Program-made: the position numbers and the translations under genes
Notes under the pieces: model-generated
The model's input: the letters and a program-made list of their open reading frames with translations, nothing else
Databases searched by the model: none
Told to the model about the DNA's origin: nothing
Shown here: positions 20,832 to 49,303 of the stretch, in pieces
Layout: every line of letters starts with the position of its first letter
Numbering within the stretch: the stretch's first letter is position 1
Virus record (IMG/VR): IMGVR_UViG_3300044797_000113
Location: 1 to 62,517 of that record
Length of the DNA stretch: 62,517 bases
Strand: one strand, 5' to 3'
DNA from: a virus

Positions 20832-20832
20832 C

Positions 20833-21147
20833 ATGGCCGACGAATCACAGCAACCAGATAAGCCCCGCGAGGAACGTGAGCGGCAGTTGCATCCAAACTT
20901 TGCGGCTCCGGCCTTGGAGTTCGTCAACAGCCCGCTATGGCGGGAGTTCAAGCGCGTCCTGATCGTTCGCCGGCCGCAGGGCCCCGACCCCTCGGAGGCG
21001 GTCCATACCCAGGCCGCGCGCGGATTTCAGGTTCAGGCGATCCTGGACGTGATTGAACTTATCGACAGGCTGCCGCTTGAAATGGCTCAAATTGCTCCGT
21101 CTCTTGGAGATTTGATGCCGAAGGAACTCCTTGACCCGAAGGACTGA
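20833..21147 (+). CDS. Small head-module protein
   Basis: 104 residues, acidic and helical, with FVNSPLWREFKRVL and FQVQAILDVIELIDRLP. It starts one base after the portal stop and precedes the scaffold. Position suggests a minor capsid assembly factor. No motif gives a function. Confidence 0.65.
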   Translation: MADESQQPDKPREERERQLHPNFAAPALEFVNSPLWREFKRVLIVRRPQGPDPSEAVHTQAARGFQVQAILDVIELIDRLPLEMAQIAPSLGDLMPKELLDPKD

Positions 21148-21167
21148 CGCCTTCGACGACCCATCTT

Positions 21168-22667: not shown

Positions 22668-22669
22668 CC

Positions 22670-23575: not shown

Positions 23576-24073
23576 CACGGTCGCGACTTCGCGGGGCAGG
23601 CTGGGGTTCCTGATCGGGGATGAGATCCATTCAGGAGGTATGAATCCGCAGAATACGTGCCATTCGTTTGGATTCCCTAGGTCGAGATTGATTTCGTCCT
23701 CCATCTTGGAATCCAGTTTGAAAAGCTGGTTCCCCTCAAAGTACCCTCCTTCGATCATGTGCCGCGCGAACGTCCGCCAGTCCGGCGTGTTCCGCCTGAA
23801 CTCCGGAGGGATCGAAACGGTCACGCGGTAAGCCGCCTTCCTGCCCGGGTACAGGCTGCTTCTGGGAGGGCCCATCGGCGAGTCCATGGGGATGAAATGC
23901 TTGTTTGTTGTCAGCCACTGGATGCCCCGCATATGCTTGAACGTATTCCGCTTCAAGTTGTGCGCGTCCGGGATCACCGCCAGGGCGAGTACGCCGTTTG
24001 CGATTCCAGTTTGTCTTGCGTCGATCAGATCGGCTTCGGAAAGGAAGTGGTAGAACGTCCAGGGTTTCGGCAT
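23312..24073 (-). CDS. Unrecognised protein, antisense overlap with the glycosyltransferase
   Basis: 253 residues from the ATG at 24073, the only leftward gene in the virion module. Residues 1-150 look genuine (WTFYHFLSEADL, GIQWLTTNKHF, NEWHVFCGFIPPEWI). The YHF...G...WLTT spacing faintly recalls ADP-ribosyltransferase-like phage and toxin proteins, at low confidence. The last 85 codons overlap the end of 22670-23575 in antisense; that part may be chance read-through. A palindrome (24076-24092) covers its start region. It may be an acquired single gene (moron). Confidence 0.55.
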   Translation of the reverse strand: MPKPWTFYHFLSEADLIDARQTGIANGVLALAVIPDAHNLKRNTFKHMRGIQWLTTNKHFIPMDSPMGPPRSSLYPGRKAAYRVTVSIPPEFRRNTPDWRTFARHMIEGGYFEGNQLFKLDSKMEDEINLDLGNPNEWHVFCGFIPPEWISSPIRNPSLPREVATVLSKILVPETPQPDVLGHDGQIDEKIVTGSFGAGTEGNVVPKVLLNGVEKAEVVPQLLADVGHFDFKLGKFVPDGSKDAPVNEDPAEA

Positions 24074-24075
24074 GG

Positions 24076-24092
24076 TTACGCAAATAGCGTAA
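24076..24092. promoter_or_regulatory. Operator-like palindrome, copy 3 (perfect)
   Basis: TTACGCAAATAGCGTAA is perfect on both arms (6 bases each, spacer AAATA). It lies between the leftward gene starting at 24073 and the rightward Xre-type gene starting at 24136, so it is well placed as the regulator's own operator. Confidence 0.7.
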
Positions 24093-24135
24093 CGACTCTT
24101 GACAGGGCAAGAGAAATTCGACAACTCTCGCACCA

Positions 24136-24348
24136 GTGACTCCCGAAGAGATCATCAACAAACGCTGCCTGCTTGGCCTTTCGCGTGCGGCATTTGCAAG
24201 GAAACTTGGCGTTTCCAAGCGAACGGTTGAGGGATGGGAGAGCGGTCGAATACCTTCCCGGACGGCCATCCTGTGCATCCGTCAGCTATTGCGTGACGCG
24301 AAACGGATCGCTGACGCCAAAGCGAGACAGAGCGCCGTCGCGCGATAA
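24136..24348 (+). CDS. Xre-family helix-turn-helix regulator
   Basis: 70 residues from a GTG. A classic HTH_3 fold: INKRCLLGLSRAAFARKLGV, then SKRTVEGWESGR with the recognition helix, and a basic tail. Small stand-alone regulators of this type bind short palindromes as dimers. The perfect palindrome 44 bases upstream, repeated at three other leftward gene starts, is the obvious candidate target. It is the only recognisable repressor-type gene in the genome, with no integrase or antirepressor beside it. Confidence 0.85.
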   Translation: MTPEEIINKRCLLGLSRAAFARKLGVSKRTVEGWESGRIPSRTAILCIRQLLRDAKRIADAKARQSAVAR

Positions 24349-24353
24349 ATCTT

Positions 24354-26189
24354 ATGTCCAACATCCCAGGCAGCCGCCCGCCTCCTCCCCCGGGCTTTCA
24401 GTACATGGGCGCCCGCCTTGTGCGGTCGAATCCATTCGGAGAAGTCACCGCCCCGGTCCAGAAACTTCTGGTCGTCGTCCCGTACTATGAGGGAGACAAG
24501 GCCGACGCCGAGGCCATGCTTGGGCTCGTCTGCGATCTGGAGCGCGTGAAAATCAAGGAGGCGGATCTGTTCCTCGAAGCGCGCGCCGATGCGCTGCCGT
24601 TGTCCGATTCCCTCATGCAGCGCCTGCGCGAACGCTTCGACAAGGTTCATTTGAACACCTGCCGGCGCCGGGACGGGGTCGGCCATCCGTTCGGGGCGAA
24701 CCAGATGTTTTTCGACGTGCTGACGCTGTTCGGCCAGGTTCCGAGCTGGAACCAGTCGTACTACGCATTTCTCTTCATGGAACCGGACTGCGTGCCCACG
24801 CGGCCCGGATGGATCAAGGAGTTGGCTGAAGCCTACGTAGCGGCCAAGGAGAAGCGCAACAAGTCGGTGATCGGGTTCATTCACGGCAACCCGGTGATGC
24901 ACGTGAACGGGGTCGCGGTCTACTCGACGCAGCTCTACAAGCTGTTTCCTGGCGACAAGATGGGCGGCGGCAATCCGCAGAAGGCTTTCGACATCGACAA
25001 GGCGCCGGAGATTCTTTCGGTCGGTGAGGCGACGCCGCTGATCAAGTTTGAGTACCGGAAGGCGACGATCACGCCTGCGGAACTGTTTGCGCCGGCTCAA
25101 TTCGGAGTCGTTCCCTGCCTGTTTCACGGCGTCAAGGACGGTTCGGCGCGTGCCGCGGTGCGGGCCAGGCATATCACATTTTCCGAGAAATCCGTCACGC
25201 TCCGGCCGACGGTCTACACGTACTACCAGACGATCCCGGACTCCACTACGCAACTCGAGGATCAGTCGATCCTTCGCCTGTGGAGCGAAGCGTGGAAGGG
25301 CCGCGGGTTCAACCCGGTCATCCTGACGGCCAAGGAAGCCGTGAAGAACAAGTTCTATGCGGCCTATGCGGCTGCCTGCGACGGTCTGCCGGCCGCTGTC
25401 CGGAAGGAAACCCAGATGAACCGGTTCCTTCGTTGGATCGCCCTGGATACTGCTGGCGGCGGCCTGCTGACCGATTACGACGTCATCCCTGGCAGGCTTA
25501 CGCCCGAGGTCCTGGGGTCGCTGTCTGGATTCCATCTTGCTAGGCCGCGCGAGATTCCAGCCCTGGTCATGGCGTTCGTCGACAAGTCTGCGCTTCCTCT
25601 CTGGCTGGACAGGATCCAGAACTACCATCCCCGCGATGAGGACATGCTGGGTGACCGCCGGAACGTCACGGACATCAACGTCGTACATGGGTGCGCCCTG
25701 GACGACGGCGTGATTCCCGAGGACTGGGTCCGGAACTTCGGAGAACCGGGCTGGCAGGACGCGCTGGCGGTCCATTTTACGGCTGCGGCGATTGCCAAGT
25801 CGCCTGACCGCGCGCTCCGGAAAAGCCAACTGATCGAACGGTTCCTGGGCGGAGAAACGGCTGCGTCGACGGTTTCGGGGATGGCTCCCATTACGCCTGC
25901 TGTCGACGCCATCGCGCCAATCACGGTTTCGGAGCATGAGCAGACCCCGTTGCCGCCGCCGGAACCCGTCGACAATTCGGACATCGTTCAGGAAGTGACA
26001 GCCGAGAACGAGAGCCTGAAATCGCAGATTGAGGCGCTGAAGACGCAGATTGCGGAAATGCAGCGTGCGCCGGTTCCCCCGCCGTCCGCGTTACCACCCG
26101 AAGCGTCCGTTACGCCGGTCGCGCCGGTGAAGAACAAAGGTGGCCGTCCTCGCAAGCATCCTCTTCCCGCGCCTGCGACGGTGGCGTGA
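24354..26189 (+). CDS. Bifunctional glycosyltransferase with C-terminal AT-hook
   Basis: 611 residues. First GT-A-like domain (about 38-250): LLVVVPYYEG strand, then FLFMEPDCVP with an ExD-type metal motif. Second domain (about 285-480): WSEAWKGRGFNPVIL, ETQMNRFLRWIALDTAGG and the DYD of LLTDYDVI, the pattern of capsular/GT32-like transferases. A Pro-rich linker, a short coiled coil (AENESLKSQIEALKTQIAEM) and a final KGGRPRKHP, an AT-hook-like DNA-binding motif, follow. Part of the co-directional glycan island; six bases from the next gene. Confidence 0.75.
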   Translation: MSNIPGSRPPPPPGFQYMGARLVRSNPFGEVTAPVQKLLVVVPYYEGDKADAEAMLGLVCDLERVKIKEADLFLEARADALPLSDSLMQRLRERFDKVHLNTCRRRDGVGHPFGANQMFFDVLTLFGQVPSWNQSYYAFLFMEPDCVPTRPGWIKELAEAYVAAKEKRNKSVIGFIHGNPVMHVNGVAVYSTQLYKLFPGDKMGGGNPQKAFDIDKAPEILSVGEATPLIKFEYRKATITPAELFAPAQFGVVPCLFHGVKDGSARAAVRARHITFSEKSVTLRPTVYTYYQTIPDSTTQLEDQSILRLWSEAWKGRGFNPVILTAKEAVKNKFYAAYAAACDGLPAAVRKETQMNRFLRWIALDTAGGGLLTDYDVIPGRLTPEVLGSLSGFHLARPREIPALVMAFVDKSALPLWLDRIQNYHPRDEDMLGDRRNVTDINVVHGCALDDGVIPEDWVRNFGEPGWQDALAVHFTAAAIAKSPDRALRKSQLIERFLGGETAASTVSGMAPITPAVDAIAPITVSEHEQTPLPPPEPVDNSDIVQEVTAENESLKSQIEALKTQIAEMQRAPVPPPSALPPEASVTPVAPVKNKGGRPRKHPLPAPATVA

Positions 26190-29358: not shown

Positions 29359-29978
29359 GCATACCCCGCATCATTCATTACGCGCTTTGCGGCGGATGGA
29401 AACTCTCTGATCTGGACGAACGGTGCATCGCCACCTGGCGCGCGGTGCTGCCGGATTACGAACTGCACCTATGGACGGATGAGAACGGTCCGAAGGATCG
29501 CCCGTTCTTCCGGGACGCGTGTCGGCTGCGGCCGGTGAACGCGAGCAACTACATCAAGTTCTGGGCGCTGAACGAGTTTGGCGGGATTTTTTTGGACAAC
29601 GACGTCGAGGTCGTGCGGCCATTCGATTTGTCGCCGGCGTGCTTCGTGGCGTTTCAGCGCGACGACGTGATCGACGACTGCATTAATACGGCGGTCATCG
29701 GCTCCGAACCGAAGCATCCGTTTATTCTTTCGTGCCTACGCCGACTCGATTCAGACCAGGCTGACACCTGGCCGATTTGGCCGGGTTGCGGGCTTCCGAC
29801 GGAAGAACTTCGATTCCGCGGTCTGCGCGGGCTGAATGTCGAGCAGGTAGTAGAAGGAGTCACGGTGTACGATAAGGAACGGTTTTACCCTTGGCGGTGG
29901 GATGAGCAGCCGGACAGGTCCCGAGTCACCGATAGAACCTTTGCGATTCATCACTGGGCGTCATCCTGGGCAAAATGA
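29355..29978 (+). CDS. GT32-type glycosyltransferase
   Basis: 207 residues from the GTG at 29355, in GTGA overlap with the methyltransferase. The start IPRIIHYALCGG and the core NASNYIKFWALNEFGG followed by IFLDNDVEV are diagnostic of the DXD sugar-binding (Gly_transf_sug, OCH1-like) family. Here DND is the metal-binding motif. HHWASSWAK at the end also fits. Uses a nucleotide sugar; acceptor unknown. Stop overlaps the epimerase ATG. Confidence 0.9.
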   Translation: MSIPRIIHYALCGGWKLSDLDERCIATWRAVLPDYELHLWTDENGPKDRPFFRDACRLRPVNASNYIKFWALNEFGGIFLDNDVEVVRPFDLSPACFVAFQRDDVIDDCINTAVIGSEPKHPFILSCLRRLDSDQADTWPIWPGCGLPTEELRFRGLRGLNVEQVVEGVTVYDKERFYPWRWDEQPDRSRVTDRTFAIHHWASSWAK

Positions 29979-30925
29979 AAAACGTCTTCGTAGCCGGCGG
30001 GGCAGGATTCATCGGGTCGGCGCTTGTTCGCCGCCTTTCTCTGCGCAAGGACGTGGCGTCGATCGTGATTTACGACAACCTGTCGTGCGGGACATTCAGC
30101 CGGATTCAGAGTGCTTTGGAGCCAAACCGGGTCGAGTTCCTGAAGGATGAGCTGTCCGATTTGGCTCCGCTGACCGCGGCCATGTTCGGCTGTGACACCG
30201 TTTTCTGCCTAGCGGCCAATCCGGACATTTCTAAGTCCGTCACCGATCCGTCCGTTGACTTCTGGCAGGGAACCCGGCTCGTTCAAAATGTCCTCGAGGC
30301 GGCCCGGGTGATCGGCGTCAAGCGGTTCTTCTTGCCTTCAGGGAGCGGGGTATACGGAGAACGGCCAGGCCACGCGTTTCCGGAGGACTACGGGCCCTGC
30401 CTGCCTATCTCTCCCTACGGTGCCTCCAAGCTCGCCTGCGAGGCCCTTGTTTGTGCGTACAGCCACATGTTTGGGATCGAGGGTCGGGTGTTCCGATTCG
30501 CGAACGTGGTCGGCCCCAGGCAGACACACGGTGTCGGCAGGGACTTCATTACCCGGCTCACCGTTGACCAGAAACACCTCCGCATCCTTGGCGACGGAAC
30601 CCAGCTAAAATCGTACATTCACGTCGACGATGTCCTGGACGCCGTCTTCATGGTGGCTGCGGCGGCCGGACTACCGAAATACGACGTTTTCAACGTGGCG
30701 AGCGAGGACACGATGAGCGTCACGGATGTTGCGGTGATGGCTTCCCGGATCGTGCCGCACGCGAGCCAGGTCCAGTTCGAGTACACCGGAGGGGATCGAG
30801 GTTGGAAAGGCGACGTTCCGAAGGTTATTTTCGACTGTACGAAGATTCGACGCTTGGGATGGGCACCGAAACACACCTCACGCCAGGCGATGTCAGGGGC
30901 CCTAAAAGCCATGCTGTGCGAGTGA
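29975..30925 (+). CDS. NAD-dependent nucleotide-sugar epimerase/dehydratase (GalE-like)
   Basis: 316 residues, normal for the extended SDR family. GGAGFIG is the NAD-binding glycine motif at residues 8-14, YDNLSCG the ribose-binding end. SGSGVYGE supplies the catalytic Ser/Thr region and SPYGASK the YxxxK pair. SYIHVDDV and the C-terminal sugar-binding half complete the family pattern. It would interconvert a UDP- or similar sugar, feeding the neighbouring transferases. Confidence 0.9.
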   Translation: MKNVFVAGGAGFIGSALVRRLSLRKDVASIVIYDNLSCGTFSRIQSALEPNRVEFLKDELSDLAPLTAAMFGCDTVFCLAANPDISKSVTDPSVDFWQGTRLVQNVLEAARVIGVKRFFLPSGSGVYGERPGHAFPEDYGPCLPISPYGASKLACEALVCAYSHMFGIEGRVFRFANVVGPRQTHGVGRDFITRLTVDQKHLRILGDGTQLKSYIHVDDVLDAVFMVAAAAGLPKYDVFNVASEDTMSVTDVAVMASRIVPHASQVQFEYTGGDRGWKGDVPKVIFDCTKIRRLGWAPKHTSRQAMSGALKAMLCE

Positions 30926-30929
30926 CTCC

Positions 30930-31709
30930 ATGACTGTACGGATATTTACCATCGTTTTGGACGGGATGCCCTGGGTCACGCATCACCTTCCGGTTTTCAA
31001 CCGCCTGACGATTCCCTGGACTTGGACGATCGCGCACGGCGTCTCCAAGAATGTCCGGGACACGCGATGGATCCGGGCGCAGGAGCCGCGTCTGTCGAAC
31101 GACGGGACGACCGAATACCTGGCTTCGATTTACCGGCATCCCCGTGTGCGGATTTTTAATGCCCCTGTCTGGGAAGGGAAAATCGAGATGGTCAACGCCT
31201 GCTTGGACGGCGTTCAGGAAGGCGACGTTCTGATTGAGGTCGACGTCGACGAGCTCTGGACGGCGGATCAAATCGAGACGATTACCAAGGTTTTTGCAGG
31301 GCATCCAGGCGTCGATGCCATGCAGTTCTGGTGCCGGTATTTTCTCGGCCCAAACATCGTCATTGGCCCGAGGGACGGAAACTCCTATGGCTGCCGGCAA
31401 ACCGAATGGACGCGCGCCTGGCGCATCAAGTCGCCCGCCCAGCGGTTTCTCACCCATGAGCCGCCCGTCATGCCAGAAGTCCGGCATCTCATGCTGCGAG
31501 ACGAAACTCTCGGCTACGGCCTAGAGTTCGACCATTATGCCTACGCGACGAAGGCCCAGTTGCAGTATAAGCAGAACGTCTACGGGTACGAAGGTGCCGT
31601 TCACGGTTGGGAAAGGCTGCAGGCGAACAAGGAATGGCCGGTTAAACGGCTGAAACTGTTCCTGCCGTGGGTGGACGAGAAGTCGACGGCGGACTTGTGC
31701 GTGCGATGA
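30930..31709 (+). CDS. GT2-like glycosyltransferase
   Basis: 259 residues. IFTIVLDGMPWV opens the domain; VLIEVDVDELWT holds the DxD (DVD) near residue 105; QFWCRYFLGPN and a late GLEFDHYAYATKAQ complete a GT-A-like layout also found in phage and capsule clusters. The stop overlaps a small gene (ATGA). Probably the last transferase of the island. Confidence 0.75.
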   Translation: MTVRIFTIVLDGMPWVTHHLPVFNRLTIPWTWTIAHGVSKNVRDTRWIRAQEPRLSNDGTTEYLASIYRHPRVRIFNAPVWEGKIEMVNACLDGVQEGDVLIEVDVDELWTADQIETITKVFAGHPGVDAMQFWCRYFLGPNIVIGPRDGNSYGCRQTEWTRAWRIKSPAQRFLTHEPPVMPEVRHLMLRDETLGYGLEFDHYAYATKAQLQYKQNVYGYEGAVHGWERLQANKEWPVKRLKLFLPWVDEKSTADLCVR

Positions 31710-33882: not shown

Positions 33883-35193
33883 ATGGGCGGACTTCCCGGA
33901 TGTTGCGGACCTAGCATTTGCCCGCCCGGGCCCGTGCAGACGTTCTTTCTGGCGGGGCCTCCTTCGCCTTCCGGGACATGGCCTCTGGCGCAGGGTCAAG
34001 TGACAGGGTCCGTGGTTTTCAACCCTCCTTTGGCTCAGGTTCCGACGTTGGTAATGGCGTGGGTCGAGATGCCGGATATTAATGGCGCCGTTATCGGCGC
34101 TGCGGTAGACCGGTCATCCATCACAGCCAATGGGTTTAATTTTGCGCTGGCAGGTCCGCCTCCTGACGCAAACCACATTCTGGTTTTCGCGATCAACCCG
34201 GCTGTCGTGAACTTTGGGGGTCCGCCTGGTCCTCCGGGATTGACCGGTCCGGCTGGTCCACCGGGTCCATCGGGCCCAACTGGTCCCGCTGGGACCAATG
34301 GAGCCGTTGGCGCAGCAGGCCCTCGGGGGAATGTTGGCCCGGCCTACGTGTACGCGGGCGACTACATTTCGACCGGCACGTATTACTGCACGGCTACGCT
34401 TGTCTCGATCGTGTCGTACATGGGGCGCTTCTATCTTGCCGCCAACGGAGAAAAAAGCGGCTTGGCAAACTGGGGCCTCCCGATCACGTCGGACTGGACC
34501 ATCATGGGGGTCCAGTATCAGTCGATTGCAACAGGACTCCTGCTGACCCAGGATGCCGTCGTCACCCAGATTCTCACCCTCGGGCAATCCGGAAGCAACG
34601 TAGGGATCATCCAGTCTGCTAACTATGTCCCGGGATCGGTTGGATTCAAGATCACGGCTGCCGGGTATGCGGAGTTTAACGGAGCCGTGTTCACGGGGTC
34701 CATTTCGGCGGCCCTGATCGGCGTTGGAACGGTGGCGTTCAATCCGGTTTCATACTCGGCAAATACGTTTCCAATCACCGGGAACGTTGCTGCCACAAAC
34801 ACCACGGGAACAACGATTTCTTCGGTGAAGATCATCGACGTTGTCACCGTAGAAGGATGGGGTGTCGGAGGCGCTGGATTTGCCGCCAACCGGTACGGAC
34901 AGTCCGCCATGGTGTTCAAGGTGGACGTTTCCGGGGACTACACGATTCCCACCCAGACGGTCGTCACGGACCTTGTGTACTCGCTGGACTCAGGGGCTAG
35001 TTGGACCGTGTTTCCCGGGGAGTGGGAGGAGATTTCCAGTTCCGAGATCCATTCTTTCGGAATGTCTATTTCCCTGACACTGACCGGTCTTTTGGCCACT
35101 GGAACCATCCACTTCGGAATTAAGTGTACCGCCGGGGATCCGACTTCTGTGTACAACGCATGCACAATGAACGTGACATGCTTTAACCTGTGA
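33883..35193 (+). CDS. Collagen-like virion protein 1
   Basis: 436 residues. N-terminal head (1-105) with [20 protein letters not shown], shared with the third collagen-like gene. About 14 Gly-X-Y triplets follow ([19 protein letters not shown] onward). A long C-terminal beta-rich part contains [18 protein letters not shown], a trimeric fibre-like repeat. Collagen triplets in phages form trimeric stalks. Likely a head fibre or decoration. Placed right after the capsid gene. Thr/Pro/Ser in the stalk are possible glycan acceptors. Confidence 0.8.
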
Positions 35194-35603: not shown

Positions 35604-35785
35604 ACCCGACCAATTCCAAGCCACTGTACGCGCGCAATGGGTCCGTGACCCATCCGGCCAAGATTCATCGGACTCCGGTTGTTCAACTGTCGGCAATTGG
35701 AGGAGTTTTGAAGGCGAAGGCCGGGTTTCATGTGTCAATCTCCAAGACAGGTCGAGTCATGATGCCCGGAGGGAGGGTTAACTAA
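35600..35785 (+). CDS. Small basic protein between collagen genes
   Basis: 61 residues from an ATG overlapping the previous stop. Basic, Pro/Lys-rich ([27 protein letters not shown]). Its stop TAA shares its last base with the next ATG. It could be a fibre-linking peptide; no family recognised. Confidence 0.55.
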
Positions 35786-36465
35786 TGAGCTGCCCGGCCT
35801 CGAATCCGTGCTTGCCCGAAGGACCGGTCGGAACGTGCCAAGCTCCGCAGTGTTGCCCGCCGATTCTGAACGGGACTACGGCCGCTTCAGGGTTCATCGA
35901 ATTGCCGACCGGAGGCGTTGGAGGCACCGTCACCTTTCCTTCACCGATCGTTCCTGCTCCATCCCTGATTTTCCCTTGGGTTGTGAGTTCTGGTCCGGCC
36001 GGTTCCGTGATACTGGCCTGTGTCCTTGCAGGAACGATCAATGAAACCGGGTTCCAGTACGCTTTGAGCGGTCCCCCTCCTGACGGGAATCACCTGCTGT
36101 ACTACATGGTTAATCCGGCCACTACGGTTGCGGCTGGTCCGCAGGGGATTCCTGGCCCGGTCGGTCCGCAGGGCCCCCAGGGCGTTCCCGGGCCAAGCGT
36201 TACGGGCCCAATCGGACCGCAGGGTCCTGCTGGCCCGACTGGGTCCCAAGGGGCCCAAGGGCCGGCCGGGAATTATACGACCGGGACGATAATTCGGCTG
36301 ACCCCCTACACGGTGGACGCGCTTCCCGCAGCGGCTACGGCTGGGGCCGGGTCCGTTGCCTGTGTCTCGGACGCTACGGTCACAACTCCTTACACGACAG
36401 TAGCCGGCGGAGGATCGAACGTCGTCGTCGTTCTCAGCAACGCATCGAATTGGGTGATCATCTAA
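35785..36465 (+). CDS. Collagen-like virion protein 3
   Basis: 226 residues. N-terminal head similar to that of the 33883 protein ([19 protein letters not shown]). A collagen stalk of about 15 triplets with one interruption ([16 protein letters not shown], then [15 protein letters not shown]) follows, then a C-terminal 50 residues ending in NASNWVII, a form often seen at phage fibre ends. The shared head suggests both stalks attach to the same capsid site. Confidence 0.8.
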
Positions 36466-37929: not shown

Positions 37930-40002
37930 ATGGCCCAAGCAACTCCAACCAAGCGCATCAATCTGGACGGCGGGACCGACCAGGGAAAGATCGTCGGATT
38001 CGTCGACGGCGTGGACTCGTATAGTCATCCGGCGATGGTCAAACCCACTCAGGCTCGCTGGCTGGAGAACGCTGTAACGCGCGGGGCCATCGTTCAGGTT
38101 CGGCCTGGATACGATCAGCGTTTTGAGTTCGACCTGACCGAAGGAACGCCGTTCTACCTTTGGTGGGTTTCGGTCGGGAGGCCGATCATTCACCCGCAGA
38201 TGTTTCAGAAGTTCCAGCCGAACGGAGGTCGCCCTCAGGTCGTTTTTTCAATCAGCGGCTCGCTCTGGTTTGCTGAGGTGTATTATGACGGGTCTTTCTC
38301 TGACCCTGTTCTGATTTCGTCGAACCTGTTCTCGCCAAACACGGACCAGATTTGCGGATGCCCCTGTGTTCAAACCGGGTCCATTGCCGGGGCAGGAGTG
38401 TACGTGAACAACATCCAGCCAAGGAACATCCTGGTGATTCAGGACGGCGTGAACCGCGCTGCTATTTGGGACGGCAACGGGCTTCAGGTGATGAACCCAG
38501 GAAAGCTCGTCACCGTGGATTCAACCGGTAATACGCTGTTCCCAGTAGGGTACAACGAGACGATCATCGGCCAGTGGATGGCTTGGTCCGGCAATCGGCT
38601 TTGGGTCGGCAATGGTCCGATCGGCCGAGCTTCCGACTTGGGGGATCCTACCCACTTTACGGAGGAAATGAACACGTCGTCCGGCGGGGCGTGGGTGTTT
38701 CCTCAGGACATTACGGGGATGATCGATAGGGGCATCAGCGGGACGATCAACTCGGCATTGTTTGTGTTCACCCGTGATACGACGTGGGCCATGGCAACCG
38801 GGGTCCTGCAACGGCTGGAGAACTCGTCCGGCGCCGGAGGCTGGGCGCAGACGCCAGACTTCCAGACTCAGATGTTTTCCGGCGTTGGTTGTGTCGCAGG
38901 CAAGTCCCCGATCGTTCACCGCGGGCTTTTGTACTGGATGTCGCAGGACGGAATAGTGGTTTTCGATTCCAGCGGGACGGTGTTTTCCACGCAGAATCTT
39001 CCGCCGATCGATCAGGAAATGTCCTACTCGAAGTGCAGGATGTCGCCGAATATGACCGGGGCTTGTTCCGGGTATCGGGACTCCTATGTGTTTTGGGGCG
39101 TTCCCGTAGGATCGGTGACAAACGGGAGGGCGTACAATGGCCATCTTCAGGTTTTGGACCGACAGACTACGGTCGTGCATACCCTAGGGCTGAACGGCCC
39201 ATACACCTATGGGACCATCGGATGGCAGGGCGTCTGGACGGGGATTCGTCCGATCGAGTGGCAGACGTTCGACGTTTCCGGGACGATTCGACCCTACGCC
39301 ATGTCCATGGACCAAGACGGGGTCGTTAGAATTTGGGAAGCGTTCCAGGGGAACCGTTCGGACAACGGACAACCGATTCCTTGGTCATTTGAAACCCGGC
39401 GCCACCCGGCTGCCGCGACGATGTTTGAAACCTCAGTATTCAAGTTCGCCCGGGTCATCCTCGAGCAGATGCTTGGGAATGTATCGGTCACGATCTCGTA
39501 CAAGGGTATGCGCGGGATATACAAACAGATTTTCTCAGGCACGTACACGGCTACGCCGGGATCGGTTCTTGCGGGGATGGCTCCGTGGAATACCGGGGAC
39601 AATTCCACTCCAGGCGAGAGTTTCACGGTACAGACCCGAGATGTTTCTACCCCTCAGGATCTCGGCCCCCAGGACGGTTGCTCGTCCGGCGGCGTTGAAT
39701 CTCCGTGGGAGGACTCGCGGGACCATGCGTTCAATCTTCTGATTCGGGTGACGGGGCGCGCGGCATTGGTTGGATACCGCATGGCAGTCGACGAGAGCCA
39801 GGCTGATATGAACGAGGGGGACGGAGCCCCTGTGGCCGAAACCGGGTTCCATATCCTTCCGGAGAACGACTGCCCGCAGATTTTATCAGTCGGAACGACT
39901 CCGCCGGCCTACGTCGCCGCTACATCCTTGCAACGTAACGCGTTCGTGCCATACGTCGCTGACTATCCAGACGCCGTGCTGTACCAAGCCCCAACCCTAT
40001 GA
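37930..40002 (+). CDS. Tail hub/nozzle-like protein
   Basis: 690 residues, beta-rich throughout. The N-terminus (INLDGGTDQGKIVGFVDGVD; AVTRGAIVQVRPGYDQ) has the pattern of phage proteins that read out repeated propeller-like strands (VFVFTRDTTWAMA, GLLYWMSQDG), as in podovirus tail nozzles. It is two bases after the adaptor-like gene and overlaps the next gene by ATGA. Likely forms the tail tube end through which DNA exits. Confidence 0.6.
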   Translation: MAQATPTKRINLDGGTDQGKIVGFVDGVDSYSHPAMVKPTQARWLENAVTRGAIVQVRPGYDQRFEFDLTEGTPFYLWWVSVGRPIIHPQMFQKFQPNGGRPQVVFSISGSLWFAEVYYDGSFSDPVLISSNLFSPNTDQICGCPCVQTGSIAGAGVYVNNIQPRNILVIQDGVNRAAIWDGNGLQVMNPGKLVTVDSTGNTLFPVGYNETIIGQWMAWSGNRLWVGNGPIGRASDLGDPTHFTEEMNTSSGGAWVFPQDITGMIDRGISGTINSALFVFTRDTTWAMATGVLQRLENSSGAGGWAQTPDFQTQMFSGVGCVAGKSPIVHRGLLYWMSQDGIVVFDSSGTVFSTQNLPPIDQEMSYSKCRMSPNMTGACSGYRDSYVFWGVPVGSVTNGRAYNGHLQVLDRQTTVVHTLGLNGPYTYGTIGWQGVWTGIRPIEWQTFDVSGTIRPYAMSMDQDGVVRIWEAFQGNRSDNGQPIPWSFETRRHPAAATMFETSVFKFARVILEQMLGNVSVTISYKGMRGIYKQIFSGTYTATPGSVLAGMAPWNTGDNSTPGESFTVQTRDVSTPQDLGPQDGCSSGGVESPWEDSRDHAFNLLIRVTGRAALVGYRMAVDESQADMNEGDGAPVAETGFHILPENDCPQILSVGTTPPAYVAATSLQRNAFVPYVADYPDAVLYQAPTL

Positions 40003-40715
40003 GCCAAACCGTTCCAATCGTTCTTGTTTGGAGTCCCGTAGGAACCGGGGTGTCGTACACGGACATCAACTCTTTGGGAGGAATTATCGCCGCTCAGTTG
40101 GCGGCGAATATCGAGGCCAACGTGACGTTCTGTTGGGTGGGACCGTCCACTCCTTCCTCGTTTGAAACCAACCTGATTTTCAACACCTCGGAGGGCGTAT
40201 GGTTGTATTGGGATTCCGCTGGCAGTGGTCGGTATATCCCTGTCACTCAGTTCAATGTCGGCGACATCAAGTGGACTTTCAACGCAGGGGACGCACCGAC
40301 CCAGGGATGGATCGTTTGCGACGGTCGACTGATCACGGCGATTCCGAATCTGTCTCAGTATCAGGTTGCGGCGCTGGAAACGCTGTTCGGTACAGGAGGA
40401 TCCCTGCCAACGGTTTCTCCAGTTCAATCGCTCGCCGGGCTGCCGCCGACGCAGTCGTTTGCTTCAATCAAGAACCCTTCGATACTGCCGTCTACGGGTA
40501 CGTTTTCCGGGCTCACGATTAACAATCCCCCGGCGCAGGCCGACGTGCAGGCTGTGGCAACCAACTCGGAGACCCTGGACGTTTCCGTACAGGGCCTGCA
40601 GCAGGCGTTGGCCCAGGTGATTCAACAGTCGGAAAACATGCTGGACTCCCTGCAGAACTCGGGGTCGACGACAGCGCCGACGATGTATGCTCAGGTTTTC
40701 TGCGGATTCCCGTGA
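39999..40715 (+). CDS. Phage tail collar-domain protein
   Basis: 238 residues. Residues about 85-105 (VGDIKWTFNAGDAPTQGW followed by IVCDGR) match the tail-collar motif found at fibre tips, where a short loop projects a receptor-binding edge. N-terminal 80 residues are beta-rich. A C-terminal coiled coil (LQQALAQVIQQSENMLDSL) may trimerise. Start overlaps the hub stop (ATGA). Probably an accessory tail fibre. Confidence 0.8.
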   Translation: MSQTVPIVLVWSPVGTGVSYTDINSLGGIIAAQLAANIEANVTFCWVGPSTPSSFETNLIFNTSEGVWLYWDSAGSGRYIPVTQFNVGDIKWTFNAGDAPTQGWIVCDGRLITAIPNLSQYQVAALETLFGTGGSLPTVSPVQSLAGLPPTQSFASIKNPSILPSTGTFSGLTINNPPAQADVQAVATNSETLDVSVQGLQQALAQVIQQSENMLDSLQNSGSTTAPTMYAQVFCGFP

Positions 40716-41575
40716 CAATGATACACGTCCCGGAAATTGCCGGCCTACCCGACCTGGACTCCATCGAGTCCAGAATGCTTCGTCATCCAGCCGCCGACAT
40801 AGGCGGCAAGGTACTCTGTCAACTATCGCATCATTTTGGACCCCATGTGTACGTCAGAAAATTGAATCGTCCTGCGGACTGCTATATCCTCGGTCACGCC
40901 CACAAGACGGAGCATTTGAATGTCCTGATCTCCGGAAGGCTATCGGTCATCATGGATGGAAAACTCAGGGTGATCGAGGCTGGGACAGTGTTCCTTTCAG
41001 AAGCCGGGGTTCGAAAGCTGACCTACGCGCATGTGGAATCGACTCTTATTACGATTCACCCGACCGATGAAACCGACATCGACAAGCTGGAAGATGAACT
41101 TGTGGTGAAGTCCGGGGAGTTTCTTAGGTCCGAAGCCGGTTTGGACTTCAAACGGATGCAGGCCGAGTCTGATCGCCAGGACTACCTGGCGTTCGTCGAG
41201 GAAACCTGCATGAATCATTCTGACATTCGGGCCATCATGGAGGACGAGTCGGACATGGTGCCGCTCGCAGCGGGATCGGTTAGGTGCGGAGTGTTTCCGT
41301 CGAGCATTCACGGGCGGGGCGTGTTCGCCATGGACGACATTGGGATCGGCGAGGTTGTGGCTCCAGCTAGGATCCTAGATAAAAGAACCCCTGTAGGCCG
41401 TTACACCAATCATTCGGCATCCCCCAACGCTGAAATGTTTCCATTGGAGGACGGGGGCATAAACTTGGTTGCCATGAGGCCAATATCGAGTGGCGAAGAG
41501 GTGACGGTTAACTATCGACAAGCGAGGTCAGCAAACATTTCCGCAACTCGTAATCTGATGGAGGCAGGCACATGA
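40712..41575 (+). CDS. Cupin domain fused to a SET-type methyltransferase
   Basis: 287 residues. Residues 45-125 form a cupin-like barrel with GHAHKTEHLNVLISG metal-site residues and HPTDETDIDKLE, a phage cupin pattern. Residues 191-270 are SET-like: SSIHGRGVFAMDDIGIGE, NHSASPNAE (the NHS/PN pocket, 233-239) and GEEVTVNYR (261-269, equivalent of GEELTFDY). SET enzymes methylate lysine with S-adenosylmethionine. Lying among tail genes, it may modify a virion or host protein. GTG start is coupled (GTGA); an ATG two codons on is possible. Whether the cupin is catalytic is unknown. Confidence 0.8.
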   Translation: MTMIHVPEIAGLPDLDSIESRMLRHPAADIGGKVLCQLSHHFGPHVYVRKLNRPADCYILGHAHKTEHLNVLISGRLSVIMDGKLRVIEAGTVFLSEAGVRKLTYAHVESTLITIHPTDETDIDKLEDELVVKSGEFLRSEAGLDFKRMQAESDRQDYLAFVEETCMNHSDIRAIMEDESDMVPLAAGSVRCGVFPSSIHGRGVFAMDDIGIGEVVAPARILDKRTPVGRYTNHSASPNAEMFPLEDGGINLVAMRPISSGEEVTVNYRQARSANISATRNLMEAGT

Positions 41576-42342
41576 GCTTCGTTGCCGTAGCGGTTATCGG
41601 AGGCGCTGTGATCGGAGCTGGAACTTCCATCTACGAAGGCTCACAGACCCAGAAGGCCATCAAGTCAGATCAGGATCTGCTGAATAACCTGACCTACCAG
41701 CCGATCGACATTCCTTCGCTCCAAGCTGCCGCCACCCAAGCTTCGATCACGGATGCTCAAAACTCTCTCGCGCTGCAGACGGCCTTGCAGCCGAACGTCG
41801 TCAAGGCGAACAACGAGACCGCCGCGAGCATCGCCGGTCAGATTGCCCAGGGCGGGAATCTAGGCTCGGACATTTCTGATCAGGTGGAGGAGGCGGGGCG
41901 CACGGCAGGCGGAGCAACCGGAAATCTCGGGAACGCCGCACCGTACACCGCTGGGCTGATAGGGACAAATGCGCTGGCGTTGCTTCAGCAGAGGCAGAAC
42001 GCCGGGCTTGCGTTGGGGGCGGCGAACCCTGCGCCGGCAGTTGGGTTGTCCGCTCAGGACGTGGCTTCAGCAACCGAGGCCAACAGCAACGCGATCAACC
42101 AGTTTAATATCGCAAAGGCCGGCGGTCAGGCGAATTTGATCAATTCCCAGGCGCAGGCGAACTCAGCTTTGGCGGGGGGGATAGGGAGTAGTTTGACCCA
42201 AGCCGCGTCTCTACTTGCGCTGACCAATAGTTCCAAGGGTTCAGGGTCCACAACAGTTGTTAACCCAGGGGCATCTGGCACAGGTGTGTCAGGCCCAGTG
42301 CCGGCCACGACTTCGGGTTCCAATATCGGAGGATTTTCTTAA
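41572..42342 (+). CDS. Internal virion (ejection) protein candidate
   Basis: 256 residues. N-terminal hydrophobic helix (SFVAVAVIGGAVIGAGTS) and then Ala/Gln/Asn-rich helical sequence with many small residues. This composition and the order before two larger Ala-rich proteins is typical of small ejection proteins that enter the host envelope. ATGA overlap with the cupin-SET gene. Confidence 0.65.
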   Translation: MSFVAVAVIGGAVIGAGTSIYEGSQTQKAIKSDQDLLNNLTYQPIDIPSLQAAATQASITDAQNSLALQTALQPNVVKANNETAASIAGQIAQGGNLGSDISDQVEEAGRTAGGATGNLGNAAPYTAGLIGTNALALLQQRQNAGLALGAANPAPAVGLSAQDVASATEANSNAINQFNIAKAGGQANLINSQAQANSALAGGIGSSLTQAASLLALTNSSKGSGSTTVVNPGASGTGVSGPVPATTSGSNIGGFS

Positions 42343-43648: not shown

Positions 43649-46600
43649 ATGGCCGCAGCCCCGGCAGTCGCCCCGGAGATCCCTGGCGCGCAAGCCGGTA
43701 GCTTGCCGACAGCGACGGTCGTCGCCCCGGAGGTGACGGATAACGTGTCCCCATTCGGGGATCATGCAGCCCCGTTGGCTGCGCCGGCGGTTTCTCCGTT
43801 TGGGGATAAGGCGGTCGCGCAAGGTTCGGTCCAATCGCCGTTTGGAGACACCGCGACGGATGTCCAGATTCCAACGCTGCGCGCGATGACGTGGCGCGAG
43901 AACCTTCAGGACCGACTCCATGATTTGTGGGTGAAGGCGAATACAGGGCCGTTCGATCTTCGGCAGTCTCATAGCGACATGGTAGACATTGCGTCCCAGC
44001 TCGGGAACGTGCAGCGGGAGCTTATTAATGGGGCGCTGTCTCCGGTGAGCACGGCTATGCTGGCGACTACCGGAGGGCTTGGTCAGGCTGCAAAAGAGGG
44101 TTCCGCGGTCGCACAAGTTGCAGCGCCTCTGGCGAATAAGGCAATTTTGTCAGCGGCTACCATACCCGCGGTTCTAAGGCTGCAGACAGCTCTTGAGGGA
44201 CTGAAGGATAACACGAAGTCGGCTGGTCAAAGAGCCGCAGCTATCATCGAGCCGATGATTCCTATTATCCTTGCCGGTCTTCAGGGTGGATTCGGGGAAG
44301 CGACGCGGACTGCGGGAGCCGAACCTGTCGACGTTGCTGGCTTGAAGAACGTCACTCATTCAGTGGCGGAGACGCCGGCAATTGCCGAGGCTCCTTCCGT
44401 CTCGCCGTTTGGCGATCGTGCCGCAGAACCAGCGCCCGGTCCGGCTGCGCCGTCTGCTCCCGTCTCAGAAGCAATCGTCCCGCAGGCTCCCGGTGGCGCC
44501 GTCGAGCAACCGATCGAGGGAGGCGTCGTGAAGCCTGGTGGCGGAGGATATCCGGGCACGCCAGAACCGATTCCGCATGAAGCGCCGCCTGTAACGGTCG
44601 CGCCTCCGGTGGGGTCACCGTTTGGTGATAAGGCGGCGGAGATTCAGCCGGTTGGGCAGGCGGGCGCGGTGCCGGTCGTGGCGCAGCCTCCGCCGGGTTC
44701 AACGTCCGCGCCTCCATCTCTGCCGTTTGATGAAGTCAAAAAGCAGTACATTGACGCCTTTGCGCAATCGAACAAGTACACGCCTGATCAGGTTGGCGGC
44801 AAGGACGCGATTGACAAGATGGCGGCACTTGCTGACGCCTACCCCGACTTCATTGAACATATCGACAACGGGACGGAACCGCCGGTTCTTCCCGGCGGCG
44901 GCATTGTAGGCCCAGAAGTCATTGAGCAACCGACTGCCGAACCGCGCTCTCCGCCGGGTCCGCGCTGGACTTTGGATCCCGGGGCGATCCCTGGAGAGCC
45001 GTCGTACTTTCTGGATGTCCCCGGGGGCGGTGCTTTGGACGAAGCGAAGGCCGCAATAACCGAGCGGGAGGTTCCCGGTAAGGGGGTTCTGTTTGATGCG
45101 ACGACGGCCGGCGGAGAATCAATTGGAACGTTCTCTACGCTGGGTCAGGTCGCCAAGGCTGCGGAGGCTTCTGTTGGACACGGATTGGATGCTGAGAACC
45201 ATCCGCTGAATGTTCTTCCAAACGGGGAATGGATGGATCTACCAGCAATCGGAGGTGCGGCCGTTAGGGTACGAAGATCGAACAATAAGATTTGGGTTGA
45301 AGCGTCAAAACCACAAGGGGTTTTCGAGAGAAGGGGAATTGCATATATTCATTTTGAAAAGGATGGGACAATGACTCCTGGGATTGGGGGGGATCCAGAG
45401 CTGCAGGAAACGGCGCGAATGGCGCTTCAAGATCTTGTAGACAAAACCAGCCCGAAGGGAAATCCAATCAATGAAGGCGTGGGGGCTGCGTTAGGCTCAG
45501 GGGAACCAGAAACTCACAGCCCGCTGCCCCCCGAAGCCCCGACCGAATCCGAGGCTGCCAACGCTCCGCTTGCCGAACCAACTCCCCCCGAACCGGAGGC
45601 ACCTGGGGAGTCCGCAAAGTCCGTCCAGCAACTTCGTCAGGAGGGTTCCGCGATAACTCCGCGCGAGGCAGTCCGAACGGTTTCCCGCATTTCGGCCATC
45701 GACAAGGAAGTCGACAAGCTCCTGAACGAAAGGTCGAATCTGGCTGGCAACGACAAGCGGACGTGGGCGCGCCGGAGCGACCTGACGGACCAGGCGAACG
45801 CTCTTCTTGAAGAGCGCCTTGAGCATCAGATTCGACTTGGAGACAAGGATGCGGAGGCCGCGTTGCAGAGGTGGCACATGCGATCGGAGTCCGGGGCAAA
45901 CATGCCGTCGGCCGATGCCATTATTCTGAAGTTCCTTCAGAAGAACAAACTGCCGTCGGCCAAAGCACTCGAAATGCGGGCGGAGCGCACGGGAGGCAAG
46001 TGGTCCGGAATGTCTGGCGAACTCCGGCAGCTGGACGCTCCGAAGAAGTTCTTCATGAAGGACAAGGATGCGTTGGCTGGGGGCCTCAGCAACACCAGCC
46101 TTGAGCGTTGGAATATGAGGTTGGCGGACGAGTTGTTGGGCAACCTGGGGCCTAACCCGGACGTGGATCCGGAGACCGGGACATTGGCGGCCGGAGAAGA
46201 TGCCGGTATACAACTTGTCGGACGGGCCCTTGCGGCACAGAACTCCGGCGCTTTAGACAGGCGTCTGGGCGAGACGGCGCCGCAGTTGCCGCTCAAGGAA
46301 ACGCCGCTCTTGTCAAAGGCCCGAGAACTGCGCCGGCAGGCCGGATTTATCTACGTTCCCAATTTTGGGACTGGGCGTGTTTCGTATGCGGCACGTAGGG
46401 CGATCGGAGAACTGAACGCAGAACGCCAGAAGATCGTGAATTACTGGAAGGCAGGCGACGTCCGGCAGGCCATGGCTATGACGCGGGATGTGGCGGAAAA
46501 CAAATCCAAATTATATGCAAGGCAGAGTTCAAATGACTTCCGCGGAGACCTGGAGCGAACCTACGGAAAGGATAAGGACCTTGCTTTGGATGCGTTGACC

Positions 46601-49303
46601 GCGGTCGTAGAGGCGGGCCAGGGTCCCCTTACCGGCCAGCAACAGATCGGTGCCCCGAAGGATGTTTGGGGCAAGGAATCGCTAAAGGCTATGAAGGCCG
46701 ACCTGGAAGCGTCTACAAAGGCCGATCCTTATTGGAAGAATCGCGATCTAGCCGCTATCGACTTTGCCATAAAGAATTACGAGTATCTGAGTAGTCTCGC
46801 CGACGACTACAACGCCGTACAGGATGCAGAACACTCCACGGAGAACGCTTCTGGTGTCGAGTCGCCTACTTTTCAGCGGTACGTGTTTCATCCCCAGGAC
46901 GTAGACCAGGAAATCTCGGCCCCGTCACTCATGGGCGGCGGTACGGGGAACGCGCAGTTCCGACAGATGCGCGTCTACCCGAATTATGCAGCCTCGATTG
47001 CCGCAGGGGTAAATCCCTACACGTTGAACGCCGCGGACCTCATGGAGACGCGCCTTCGCATCGGCGCGAACATGGTCAACAACCGCGCGTGGCTGGAGTC
47101 CCTGCATGACATTGTCGACCCTACCAACGGCCAGCCTGTGGCGGCGCCGATGGAGGTCGTTAAGCGTCCGGATGGCTCCACGTACACCAAGGCTCCGGAC
47201 GGGTATCACGCGGAGACCATGGGCGGCCAGCAAGTCGCGGTACAGAACGGATACGCCGGGATTTTCAGCGCGCTCTCGGATCCAAGCCGGTTTGCCGACG
47301 GGACCTGGGGACGGCTGATTCAGCGCGGAAACGCGACGGCTAAGTCCATGGCGCTGCTGTTCGACACGTTCCACCTTGGCCGCGTGGCTTTTTGGTCCGG
47401 GATCATCCGTTCTCCGCTTGCCGGCCTGACTGGGTCGTCCCTCACCGGCCCGTCGTTTGCCCGGGGTGTGGCGATGCTTGACCTGTCCCCGCAGGAGTTT
47501 CAAAGGCGGATCGCGTCAGGTGATATACCGGCACGCTTCCAGAAACAACTGATTCAGGACAAGTACCACTTGGACAAGGTGATCGACCACGGCCTGAACG
47601 TGGGGCGGATCGCGGACTCGCTGCACCAGGAATGGGTGCGCGCGGTTCCCGGTATCGGACATTTCAACAAGTGGGTGTTTGAGGACGTGCAGCGCGGTGC
47701 TATGGCGGAGATCGCCATGATCGAGTTCAAGCGTCAGGCGAAGGCGAACCCGGAGTGGAGCGAGGATCAAGTCGCGGCGAACGTTGCACGCGAAATCAAC
47801 ACCCGATTTGGAAGTCTTGGCCGCCAGGGGTGGATCAAGTCCCAAACCGGCCAGGACATCGCCCGACTGCTCGCGTTGGCGCCTCAGTGGAACGAGGGTC
47901 TTGTGAAGTCCGAATTCCAAGGCGCATGGAACACGGCGAGTGCCGCGGCAAAGAAAGTCCTTGGTAGACAGGCCGCGGTCGGGCTTTTGGGTCGGTCTGT
48001 GATGGCGGCCGGAATCGCGCTCTTTGCCGCCAACCAACTCATCAACCTTTACACCCGGGGGCATCCCACTTGGAAGAATCCGGAGAAGACCTTTGGTGCA
48101 AAAATCTCGGCATGGATACCGGACTACATCGGGCGCGCCATGGGGCATGAGGGCCCAGGCTTCTTTCTGAATCCAATGAGCCTTCCGGCTGAGATTTCCC
48201 ACGTTGCACTGACGGCATACGAACGAACGCATGACTGGCCGGAAGCGGCGAACGACCTTCTGCGGGGACGCGCGTCGATATTTATGCGGGCAATCCTGAC
48301 GGCGATCACGGGGAAGAATAACCTTGGGCGCCCGACTCGGCCGGGGCACAGGATTGCTCCGATTCTGGCGTCCCTCAGTCCGGCTCCGTTGGCAAGCCCT
48401 GCGCTGGTCAACGCAGTCCGCGGTATTGCCGGCGGAGGCAACCGGGAAGCGTTCCCGGGCCAGTTTCAGAAACAGCTCATGCAGTCGTTTGGAATCCGGA
48501 CCGATCAGGCACCGTCGAAGGAGCAACGCATCTACGGGCTGGCGGAGGAGTTCAACCGGACCAAGGGGATCCAGCCCTCTGCCGAGTTCTACCAGGGCGA
48601 CTACCAGCCGATTGTCCACGCGCTTGAGACCGGGAATAATGCCGACGCGAAAGACGCAATGACTGCGCTGCTGCACACTAAGACGCCGGATCAGGTGTTC
48701 GATCATTTGACCCGCTGGCCGTTGTTCCCGTTTACCGGGCAGGCTCGGCGCGAAGCCGGATTTGTCCAGACCTTGAACCCGGAGGAGAAGCAGGCATACG
48801 ACCAGGCTGTTGAGAATCGCGAAGCCGTGGCGCATCAGGCGATCGACCTTCTGCATGAGGTGAATCCAAACGCGCCGACGATCTCCGGGCCTGAGTACGA
48901 CCGCCTTATGGGTGTCATGAAAGCCGACAAGGTTGCGTCGTTGCAGTCTTCCGAGGACCGGGAGGCGGCAAAGGGCGAGCTCCAACGAATCCTGGCGTTG
49001 CCTCCTGCCGAACGCGGGCCCGAACTGGAAAAACTGAAACAGGACCCGGTTTTGGACGAGGAGGTAAATCGGCAGTTCAAGGAGCAGACCCGCGGGCTGA
49101 CCGTCGTCGAGAAGCATATCCAGTCCCTTCCTGTGGCGACCGGCGCCCGGGCGGAGTACATTTTCAACGAGGCAACGAAGATTCCGGCGGGCCCGGAGCG
49201 CGCGGCGTACATTCAAAACCTCAAGGAAAAGAACATCTGGAACGACCGCATCGAGGGCCAAATCGGAGAGCTCATGCAGGGTCGACCGGCGGTGGGTCGC
49301 TGA
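43649..49303 (+). CDS. Giant internal virion protein
   Basis: 1884 residues, the largest gene. Residues 1-130 and 250-460 are Pro/Ala-rich and contain five copies of SPFGD (34-38, 49-53, 63-67, about 251 and 322). A beta region near 520-620 contains GIAYIHFEKDGTMTPGIGG. Long helical regions follow, with a hydrophobic helix (VMAAGIALFAANQLINLY) near 1455. The C-terminal 250 residues are charged and helical. No peptidase or lysozyme motif is visible. Such giants in short-tailed phages are ejected to build a trans-envelope channel. Three bases after the previous gene. Confidence 0.75.
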   Translation: MAAAPAVAPEIPGAQAGSLPTATVVAPEVTDNVSPFGDHAAPLAAPAVSPFGDKAVAQGSVQSPFGDTATDVQIPTLRAMTWRENLQDRLHDLWVKANTGPFDLRQSHSDMVDIASQLGNVQRELINGALSPVSTAMLATTGGLGQAAKEGSAVAQVAAPLANKAILSAATIPAVLRLQTALEGLKDNTKSAGQRAAAIIEPMIPIILAGLQGGFGEATRTAGAEPVDVAGLKNVTHSVAETPAIAEAPSVSPFGDRAAEPAPGPAAPSAPVSEAIVPQAPGGAVEQPIEGGVVKPGGGGYPGTPEPIPHEAPPVTVAPPVGSPFGDKAAEIQPVGQAGAVPVVAQPPPGSTSAPPSLPFDEVKKQYIDAFAQSNKYTPDQVGGKDAIDKMAALADAYPDFIEHIDNGTEPPVLPGGGIVGPEVIEQPTAEPRSPPGPRWTLDPGAIPGEPSYFLDVPGGGALDEAKAAITEREVPGKGVLFDATTAGGESIGTFSTLGQVAKAAEASVGHGLDAENHPLNVLPNGEWMDLPAIGGAAVRVRRSNNKIWVEASKPQGVFERRGIAYIHFEKDGTMTPGIGGDPELQETARMALQDLVDKTSPKGNPINEGVGAALGSGEPETHSPLPPEAPTESEAANAPLAEPTPPEPEAPGESAKSVQQLRQEGSAITPREAVRTVSRISAIDKEVDKLLNERSNLAGNDKRTWARRSDLTDQANALLEERLEHQIRLGDKDAEAALQRWHMRSESGANMPSADAIILKFLQKNKLPSAKALEMRAERTGGKWSGMSGELRQLDAPKKFFMKDKDALAGGLSNTSLERWNMRLADELLGNLGPNPDVDPETGTLAAGEDAGIQLVGRALAAQNSGALDRRLGETAPQLPLKETPLLSKARELRRQAGFIYVPNFGTGRVSYAARRAIGELNAERQKIVNYWKAGDVRQAMAMTRDVAENKSKLYARQSSNDFRGDLERTYGKDKDLALDALTAVVEAGQGPLTGQQQIGAPKDVWGKESLKAMKADLEASTKADPYWKNRDLAAIDFAIKNYEYLSSLADDYNAVQDAEHSTENASGVESPTFQRYVFHPQDVDQEISAPSLMGGGTGNAQFRQMRVYPNYAASIAAGVNPYTLNAADLMETRLRIGANMVNNRAWLESLHDIVDPTNGQPVAAPMEVVKRPDGSTYTKAPDGYHAETMGGQQVAVQNGYAGIFSALSDPSRFADGTWGRLIQRGNATAKSMALLFDTFHLGRVAFWSGIIRSPLAGLTGSSLTGPSFARGVAMLDLSPQEFQRRIASGDIPARFQKQLIQDKYHLDKVIDHGLNVGRIADSLHQEWVRAVPGIGHFNKWVFEDVQRGAMAEIAMIEFKRQAKANPEWSEDQVAANVAREINTRFGSLGRQGWIKSQTGQDIARLLALAPQWNEGLVKSEFQGAWNTASAAAKKVLGRQAAVGLLGRSVMAAGIALFAANQLINLYTRGHPTWKNPEKTFGAKISAWIPDYIGRAMGHEGPGFFLNPMSLPAEISHVALTAYERTHDWPEAANDLLRGRASIFMRAILTAITGKNNLGRPTRPGHRIAPILASLSPAPLASPALVNAVRGIAGGGNREAFPGQFQKQLMQSFGIRTDQAPSKEQRIYGLAEEFNRTKGIQPSAEFYQGDYQPIVHALETGNNADAKDAMTALLHTKTPDQVFDHLTRWPLFPFTGQARREAGFVQTLNPEEKQAYDQAVENREAVAHQAIDLLHEVNPNAPTISGPEYDRLMGVMKADKVASLQSSEDREAAKGELQRILALPPAERGPELEKLKQDPVLDEEVNRQFKEQTRGLTVVEKHIQSLPVATGARAEYIFNEATKIPAGPERAAYIQNLKEKNIWNDRIEGQIGELMQGRPAVGR

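Follow-up and report, generated by a model that had tools for sequence, protein, structure and literature searches.

A cupin–SET fusion conserved beside podophage ejection genes, a candidate minimal lysine methyltransferase

SET enzymes that methylate lysines are known in two settings, chromatin and bacterial effectors. In known SET enzymes the SET-I segment lines the groove that receives the lysine peptide. vSET is a stand-alone protein of an algal virus and acts on host histone H3. This 119-residue H3K27 methyltransferase (PBCV-1 A612L, PDB 1n3j/3kma) is a compact viral SET like the one described here, but it carries no cupin. Free-standing mini-SETs are also encoded by phages. That of the Kyanoviridae-type marine virus AG-345-P14 (L008) is a short SET with the motif R-T-P-x-G-x-[YF]-x-N-H, BFVD entry A0A6J5M2C6 is a 97-residue protein (TMt 0.81), and in phage Ps15 a SET protein is merely named (PMC9025141); these three have no cupin and, as far as seen, no link to a tail or ejection slot. 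A Ralstonia SET gene has been found divergent from an HU-like gene (PMC5390034).

The cupin half likewise has described counterparts. The cupins of PHROG 24280 and PHROG 12032 (PHA00672), for example VvAW1 gp04, VPMS1 MS_018, BA3_0007 and Sphaerotilus R1 gp38, are the same cupin in the same genomic slot; they stop after the cupin, 109–133 residues from the start of the barrel, with no SET in 24 such records. Both halves occur together in PHROG 34170, a family of unknown function whose members P26218 gp30, PH1 gp49 and MW202744 share the domain order and the pre-ejection slot of the protein studied here at 27–38% identity. No NCBIfam model covers a cupin–SET protein, and a full-text literature search found neither an account of the fusion nor a paper reporting such a protein in virions. 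Both halves are of kinds already known, and the fusion is present but unnamed in PHROGs and GenBank; the new element is the mini-SET joined to a phage tail-cassette cupin.

The window is the whole stretch of DNA analysed, 62,517 nucleotides of an IMG/VR virus record (IMGVR_UViG_3300044797_000113). The gene for the fusion, its neighbours and its parts are as follows.

37930–40002, + strand: 690-residue protein in the position of a gp10/Hc3-type tail hub (positional analogy; weak PHROG 511 internal virion match, E 0.003)
39999–40715, + strand: 238-residue tail-collar-like protein, overlapping both neighbours (weak matches to PF07484, 0.037, and PHROG 9116 tail, 0.031)
40712–41575, + strand: cupin–SET fusion gene (ORF, Pfam and PHROG matches, fusion kept in IMG/VR loci)
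40820–41104, + strand: cupin, RmlC-like beta barrel, residues ~37–131 (AlphaFold2 strands 37–116, PDB cupin fold matches, PHROG 24280/12032, phage tblastn)
41114–41242, + strand: helical linker, residues ~135–177, helices 135–165 and 169–177 (AlphaFold2 model)
41279–41521, + strand: mini-SET without SET-I, residues ~190–270 (Pfam, alignments, AlphaFold2 model, HMM)
41399–41425, + strand: predicted SAM-site motif, R230–P238, R-Y-T-N233-H234-S-x-x-P (alignment of fusions)
41498–41515, + strand: predicted catalytic tyrosine motif, E263-x-T265-x-N-Y268 (alignment of fusions)
41572–42342, + strand: 256-residue protein with a hydrophobic N terminus in the position of a gp7-like ejection gene (start overlaps the cupin–SET stop by 4 bases, ATGA)

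The fusion gene encodes 287 residues from a GTG start that overlaps the preceding stop (GTGA); an alternative ATG lies at 40718. Every junction in the chain of four genes from 37930 to 42342 is a 4-base overlap. The first-pass annotation had read the gene as a phage-type cupin joined in one protein to a SET-like half, pointing to GHAHKTEH and HPTDETD in the former and NHSASPN and GEEVTVNY in the latter. All four motifs are present and both assignments hold. The Pfam SET model (PF00856) matches with E = 5.2e-11 (43.3 bits, cut-off 22.4), and positions 32–280 of the 296 in the PHROG 34170 profile align with residues 33–273 (E 2e-50), covering both domains in one chain. E values near 2e-25 were obtained for each of two cupin-only families, PHROG 24280 (tail fiber adhesin) and PHROG 12032 (short tail fiber); the match to Cupin_2 (PF07883, E = 2e-4) falls under that family's own cut-off. 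In the full-length AlphaFold2 model (pLDDT 89.8, pTM 0.65) a barrel is followed by a long helix and then by the SET, and PDB cupins are the top fold matches of the first half. Judged by these profile matches, the cupin half is a member of the phage short-tail-fibre/adhesin cupin sequence family. Within the mini-SET the order of motifs is S-x-I-x-G-x-G-[VL]-F (SET-N), the connector A-R-x4-R-T-P-x-G-R-Y, NHSxxPN and GEEVTVNY. Chance occurrence of the SET motifs was ruled out: an HMM built from 53 other members, with the window excluded, scores the protein at 105 bits (E 7e-32) against 8.5 for the top of 1000 shuffles.

Structure prediction had been suggested at the outset as a check on the SET half. 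An AlphaFold2 model of the SET alone (pLDDT 84) has a SET fold that matches MLL1 (E 1.1e-6) and vSET (E 1.7e-6, TM 0.61/0.65), and the chain carries the SAM-site motifs G-x-G and N-H-x-x-x-N as well as the catalytic tyrosine in E-[LIV]-x-x-[DN]-Y. The SET of MLL1/KMT2A is the top match in sequence and in fold; its G-x-G, RFxNHSxxPN and GEExTxDY motifs align with those of the window SET. The fold was thus recovered, but without SET-I. MLL1 possesses SET-I and has 64 residues between G-x-G and NH, whereas the spacing is 30 residues in the window SET and in all 83 members measured, so that about 34 residues expected of a SET lysine methyltransferase are absent. With them go the peptide groove and part of the lysine channel of known SET enzymes. 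This lowers the claim to a working enzyme without removing it, because SET-I length varies among SET proteins.

Loss of the SAM-binding residues had been named as the observation that would speak against methylation; these residues are retained. Conservation was assessed in 41 non-redundant fusions (<85% mutual identity) from the IMG/VR scan. G201, G203, E263, T265 and Y268 are invariant, N233 and H234 are found in 40 of the 41 (the remaining one has an ambiguous base), N239 in 39, and R225 and T226 are nearly invariant. Members are 27–45% identical overall, yet N233, H234, E263, T265 and Y268 are essentially unchanged among them. As the first IMG/VR scan had partly used SET-motif patterns, conservation was retested with cupin-only patterns. 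The best 80 hits of this query contain 75 complete genes (related contigs included), 50 with a SET and 25 ending cleanly after the cupin; N-H and E-[ILV]-T-x-[DN]-Y are kept in every one of the 50, and no degraded SET form was found among the 75. Over 164 non-independent close pairs, median dN/dS values are 0.058 (SET) and 0.050 (cupin). The SET is therefore under strong purifying selection, like the cupin, and the possibility that it is a decaying remnant was rejected on this ratio and on the lack of intermediates among the complete genes. The conserved motifs, the selection and the modelled fold together argue for a SAM-dependent enzyme that probably works.

Most of the fusions (the SET domains of L010–L095) have a loop, I-x-G-C-x-G-G-x-x-G, ahead of [ED]E[IV]TxDY. 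The window SET differs from most members of PHROG 34170 in lacking it, as do the SETs of L080, L088, L007, L096–L098 and L162. In the SET tree the window SET groups, with weak support, with other SETs that have no such loop.

The fusion is not confined to the window. At least 461 IMG/VR stretches encode relatives, and a search for phage homologues and their neighbours, which had also been suggested, located the full fusion in podophages that have been isolated or assembled, at least five in all: Rhodoferax phage P26218 (gp30), Pseudoalteromonas phage PH1 (gp49), zth2-2 and two Manatee Spring podophages. In P26218, PH1 and records MW202557 and MW202744 it lies beside an ejection gene. The last of these, from a Manatee Spring podophage, annotates the fusion as ‘pbcV-1 histone H3-lys 27 methyltransferase structure’. 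Other matching phage records mostly hold the cupin alone, labelled short tail fiber, tail fiber adhesin or hypothetical. Cupin–SET is thus a common and conserved podophage architecture, and the earlier picture of the SET as a rare borrowing has to be given up.

Whether or not it includes the SET, the cupin gene has a shared slot in three sets of phages: the P22-like P26218, VvAW1, BA3 and X14; the T7-like Sphaerotilus phage R1; and the PH1/VPMS1/Amaethon group. Upstream of the slot comes a gene for a tail hub, tail tubular B or an internal virion protein, in many cases separated from it by one or two small genes; immediately downstream is a gene for a gp7-like ‘DNA ejection’ protein or an internal virion protein. 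SET-less cupins occupy the slot in P22-like, T7-like (Krylovirinae) and VPMS1/Amaethon-type phages; Alteromonas phage R8W is an exception, its cupin gene following the RNA polymerase gene. The following gene, called mechanically as the longest ORF near the cupin stop, begins within 2 bases of that stop in nearly all of 118 distinct loci and overlaps it in 74. Its product has a hydrophobic N terminus in 116 of the 118, against 11 of 163 control (later) genes. In most loci the cupin gene, with or without SET, is translationally coupled to the ejection gene. We note that C-terminal Cys-Gln/His/Leu tails (LCQQ, KCQQ, LCHG) recur in cupin and cupin–SET genes, for example in L022, L091, L111 and L112. 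Since they fit a 13-base overlap with the ATGTC (Met-Ser) start of the next gene, they probably result from the gene overlap and do not form a protein motif.

The first-pass annotation had placed the gene in a tail cluster. Homologous loci agree, in that they place the cupin or cupin–SET gene before ejection genes; for the window's own neighbours hardly any homologue can be recognised, and the label ‘tail cluster’ therefore rests on the homologous loci. Profile comparison of these neighbours with the portal, capsid and hub families of P26218 gave no match. A search of 50,697 phage records turned up no homologue of the window's 775-, 499-, 611-, 690- and 1884-residue proteins (18504–26189, 37930–40002, 43649–49303), and IMG/VR yielded none for the gene in the hub position either. 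By positional analogy the 690-residue product would be the tail hub. The product of 41572–42342 is a putative ejection protein by its N terminus and position; its N terminus aligns weakly with the P26218 gp29 ejection family (hhalign, 21 columns, 35% probability). The other structural genes of the window are likewise unrecognisable beside those of the phages in PHROG 34170, and on its sequence the window phage is very distant from isolated phages.

Elsewhere in the window are sugar genes (29975–31709 and 22670–23575). One product is an NAD-dependent epimerase/dehydratase (PF01370, 1.2e-40); glycosyltransferases are represented by a weak match and by a C terminus that resembles one. Collagen-like stretches rich in Gly and Pro mark two related proteins (33883–35193 and 35785–36465). 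The larger of the two has matches among tail fiber families, and the smaller resembles a partial duplicate of it.

Cupin and SET behave as separable modules. Mapped onto the cupin tree, the presence of the SET switches seven times, and supported branches force at least three of these changes; the closest neighbours of the window cupin there are cupin-only proteins, a placement that is weakly supported. Because many phages lack the SET (25 of the 75 complete genes) and none was found elsewhere in the 24 cupin-only phage records, some of which are fragments, the SET is accessory. Supply of the SET in trans in cupin-only phages was considered and was not seen in those 24 records. Two loci separate the halves. 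In Paraburkholderia ferrariae NBRC 106233 (L098:6608–8055) cupin and SET are separate genes overlapping by 4 bases; the pair adjoins a terminase-small-like ORF and lies outside the tail cassette. A Comamonadaceae contig (L097:6908–7474) has a SET-only gene, without cupin, shortly upstream of an ejection-like gene at 7755. This coupled gene pair and the SET-only gene near an ejection-like gene support the view that cupin and SET are separable but functionally linked.

Informed by these comparisons, we propose a two-part late podophage protein in which the cupin docks an active mini-SET on the tail or ejection assembly to methylate a co-assembled virion protein, a reading that we favour tentatively and put a little short of evens. 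The N-terminal half would be the conserved cupin of the tail/ejection cassette and the C-terminal half a SET protein-lysine methyltransferase cut down to its SAM-binding and catalytic core. The cupin would anchor the enzyme to the tail, or to the ejection proteins, as these assemble, and the SET would use S-adenosylmethionine to methylate a lysine of a virion protein assembled with it. With SET-I absent, the wall of the peptide groove would have to be replaced, and the cupin or a partner protein may supply it. The parts of the proposal differ in strength. Going by its conserved residues, the protein is likely to be enzymatically active. Its association with the virion is somewhat less assured but still rather likely, and, given activity, whether the putative substrate is a virion or a host protein is evenly balanced. 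The presence of the fusion beside the ejection gene in the unrelated isolates P26218, PH1, MW202557 and MW202744 supports the proposal. The absence of SET-I, the accessory nature of the SET and the position of the L098 pair count against it, as does the sole computational test for a virion substrate, which found no SET-specific conserved lysine in the coupled ejection protein.

An injected effector is one rival. The protein would be carried in the virion, kept by the cupin close to the ejection proteins, and its SET would methylate a host protein after entry, for example a nucleoid, surface-structure or defence protein. The coupling to the ejection gene seen in most loci would suit this reading. 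Repeated gain or loss of the SET on the cupin tree is what a host-interaction function would lead one to expect, and the SET-only gene of L097, near an ejection-like gene, also counts in its favour. We nevertheless regard this as somewhat unlikely, as the very low dN/dS shows no arms-race signature and no host target was indicated by any analysis run. The uniform lack of SET-I, together with the annotation of cupin relatives as short tail fibers or adhesins, might instead point to a catalytically dead SET, that is, a SAM/SAH-binding or purely structural tail-fibre module that transfers no methyl group. Every complete fusion, however, retains NH and the catalytic tyrosine, at overall identities among members of 27–45%, and retention of the tyrosine is unexpected for a structural scaffold; we consider this reading unlikely. 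In T7 the gene for gp13 lies between the tail tube and core-protein genes, a slot comparable to that of the cupin. The cupin gene of the T7-like Sphaerotilus phage, between tail tubular B and internal virion genes, would accordingly fit a morphogenesis factor absent from the virion. Its SET would either regulate assembly or make a transient modification to a partner, and the distance of the L098 pair from the tail cassette is in keeping with this. Against such an assembly-time enzyme, cupin relatives carry the name tail fiber, though purely through annotation, and the record of Shewanella phage X14 labels its cupin-only homologue a ‘structural gene’, on a basis unstated in the record; we judge it improbable.

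Returning to the docked enzyme, the protein might represent a new class, a virion-tethered minimal SET lysine methyltransferase. A tail cupin or a partner would complete its groove, and it would methylate proteins of the virion or the host while particles assemble or the genome enters the cell; we hold this broader proposal to be doubtful at present. As P26218 and PH1 are isolated phages that carry the fusion, the question is directly testable. A SET that works without SET-I would show how little of the fold suffices. If the proposal is true, short-tailed phages methylate their own proteins or those of their hosts, an almost unexamined layer of phage biology.
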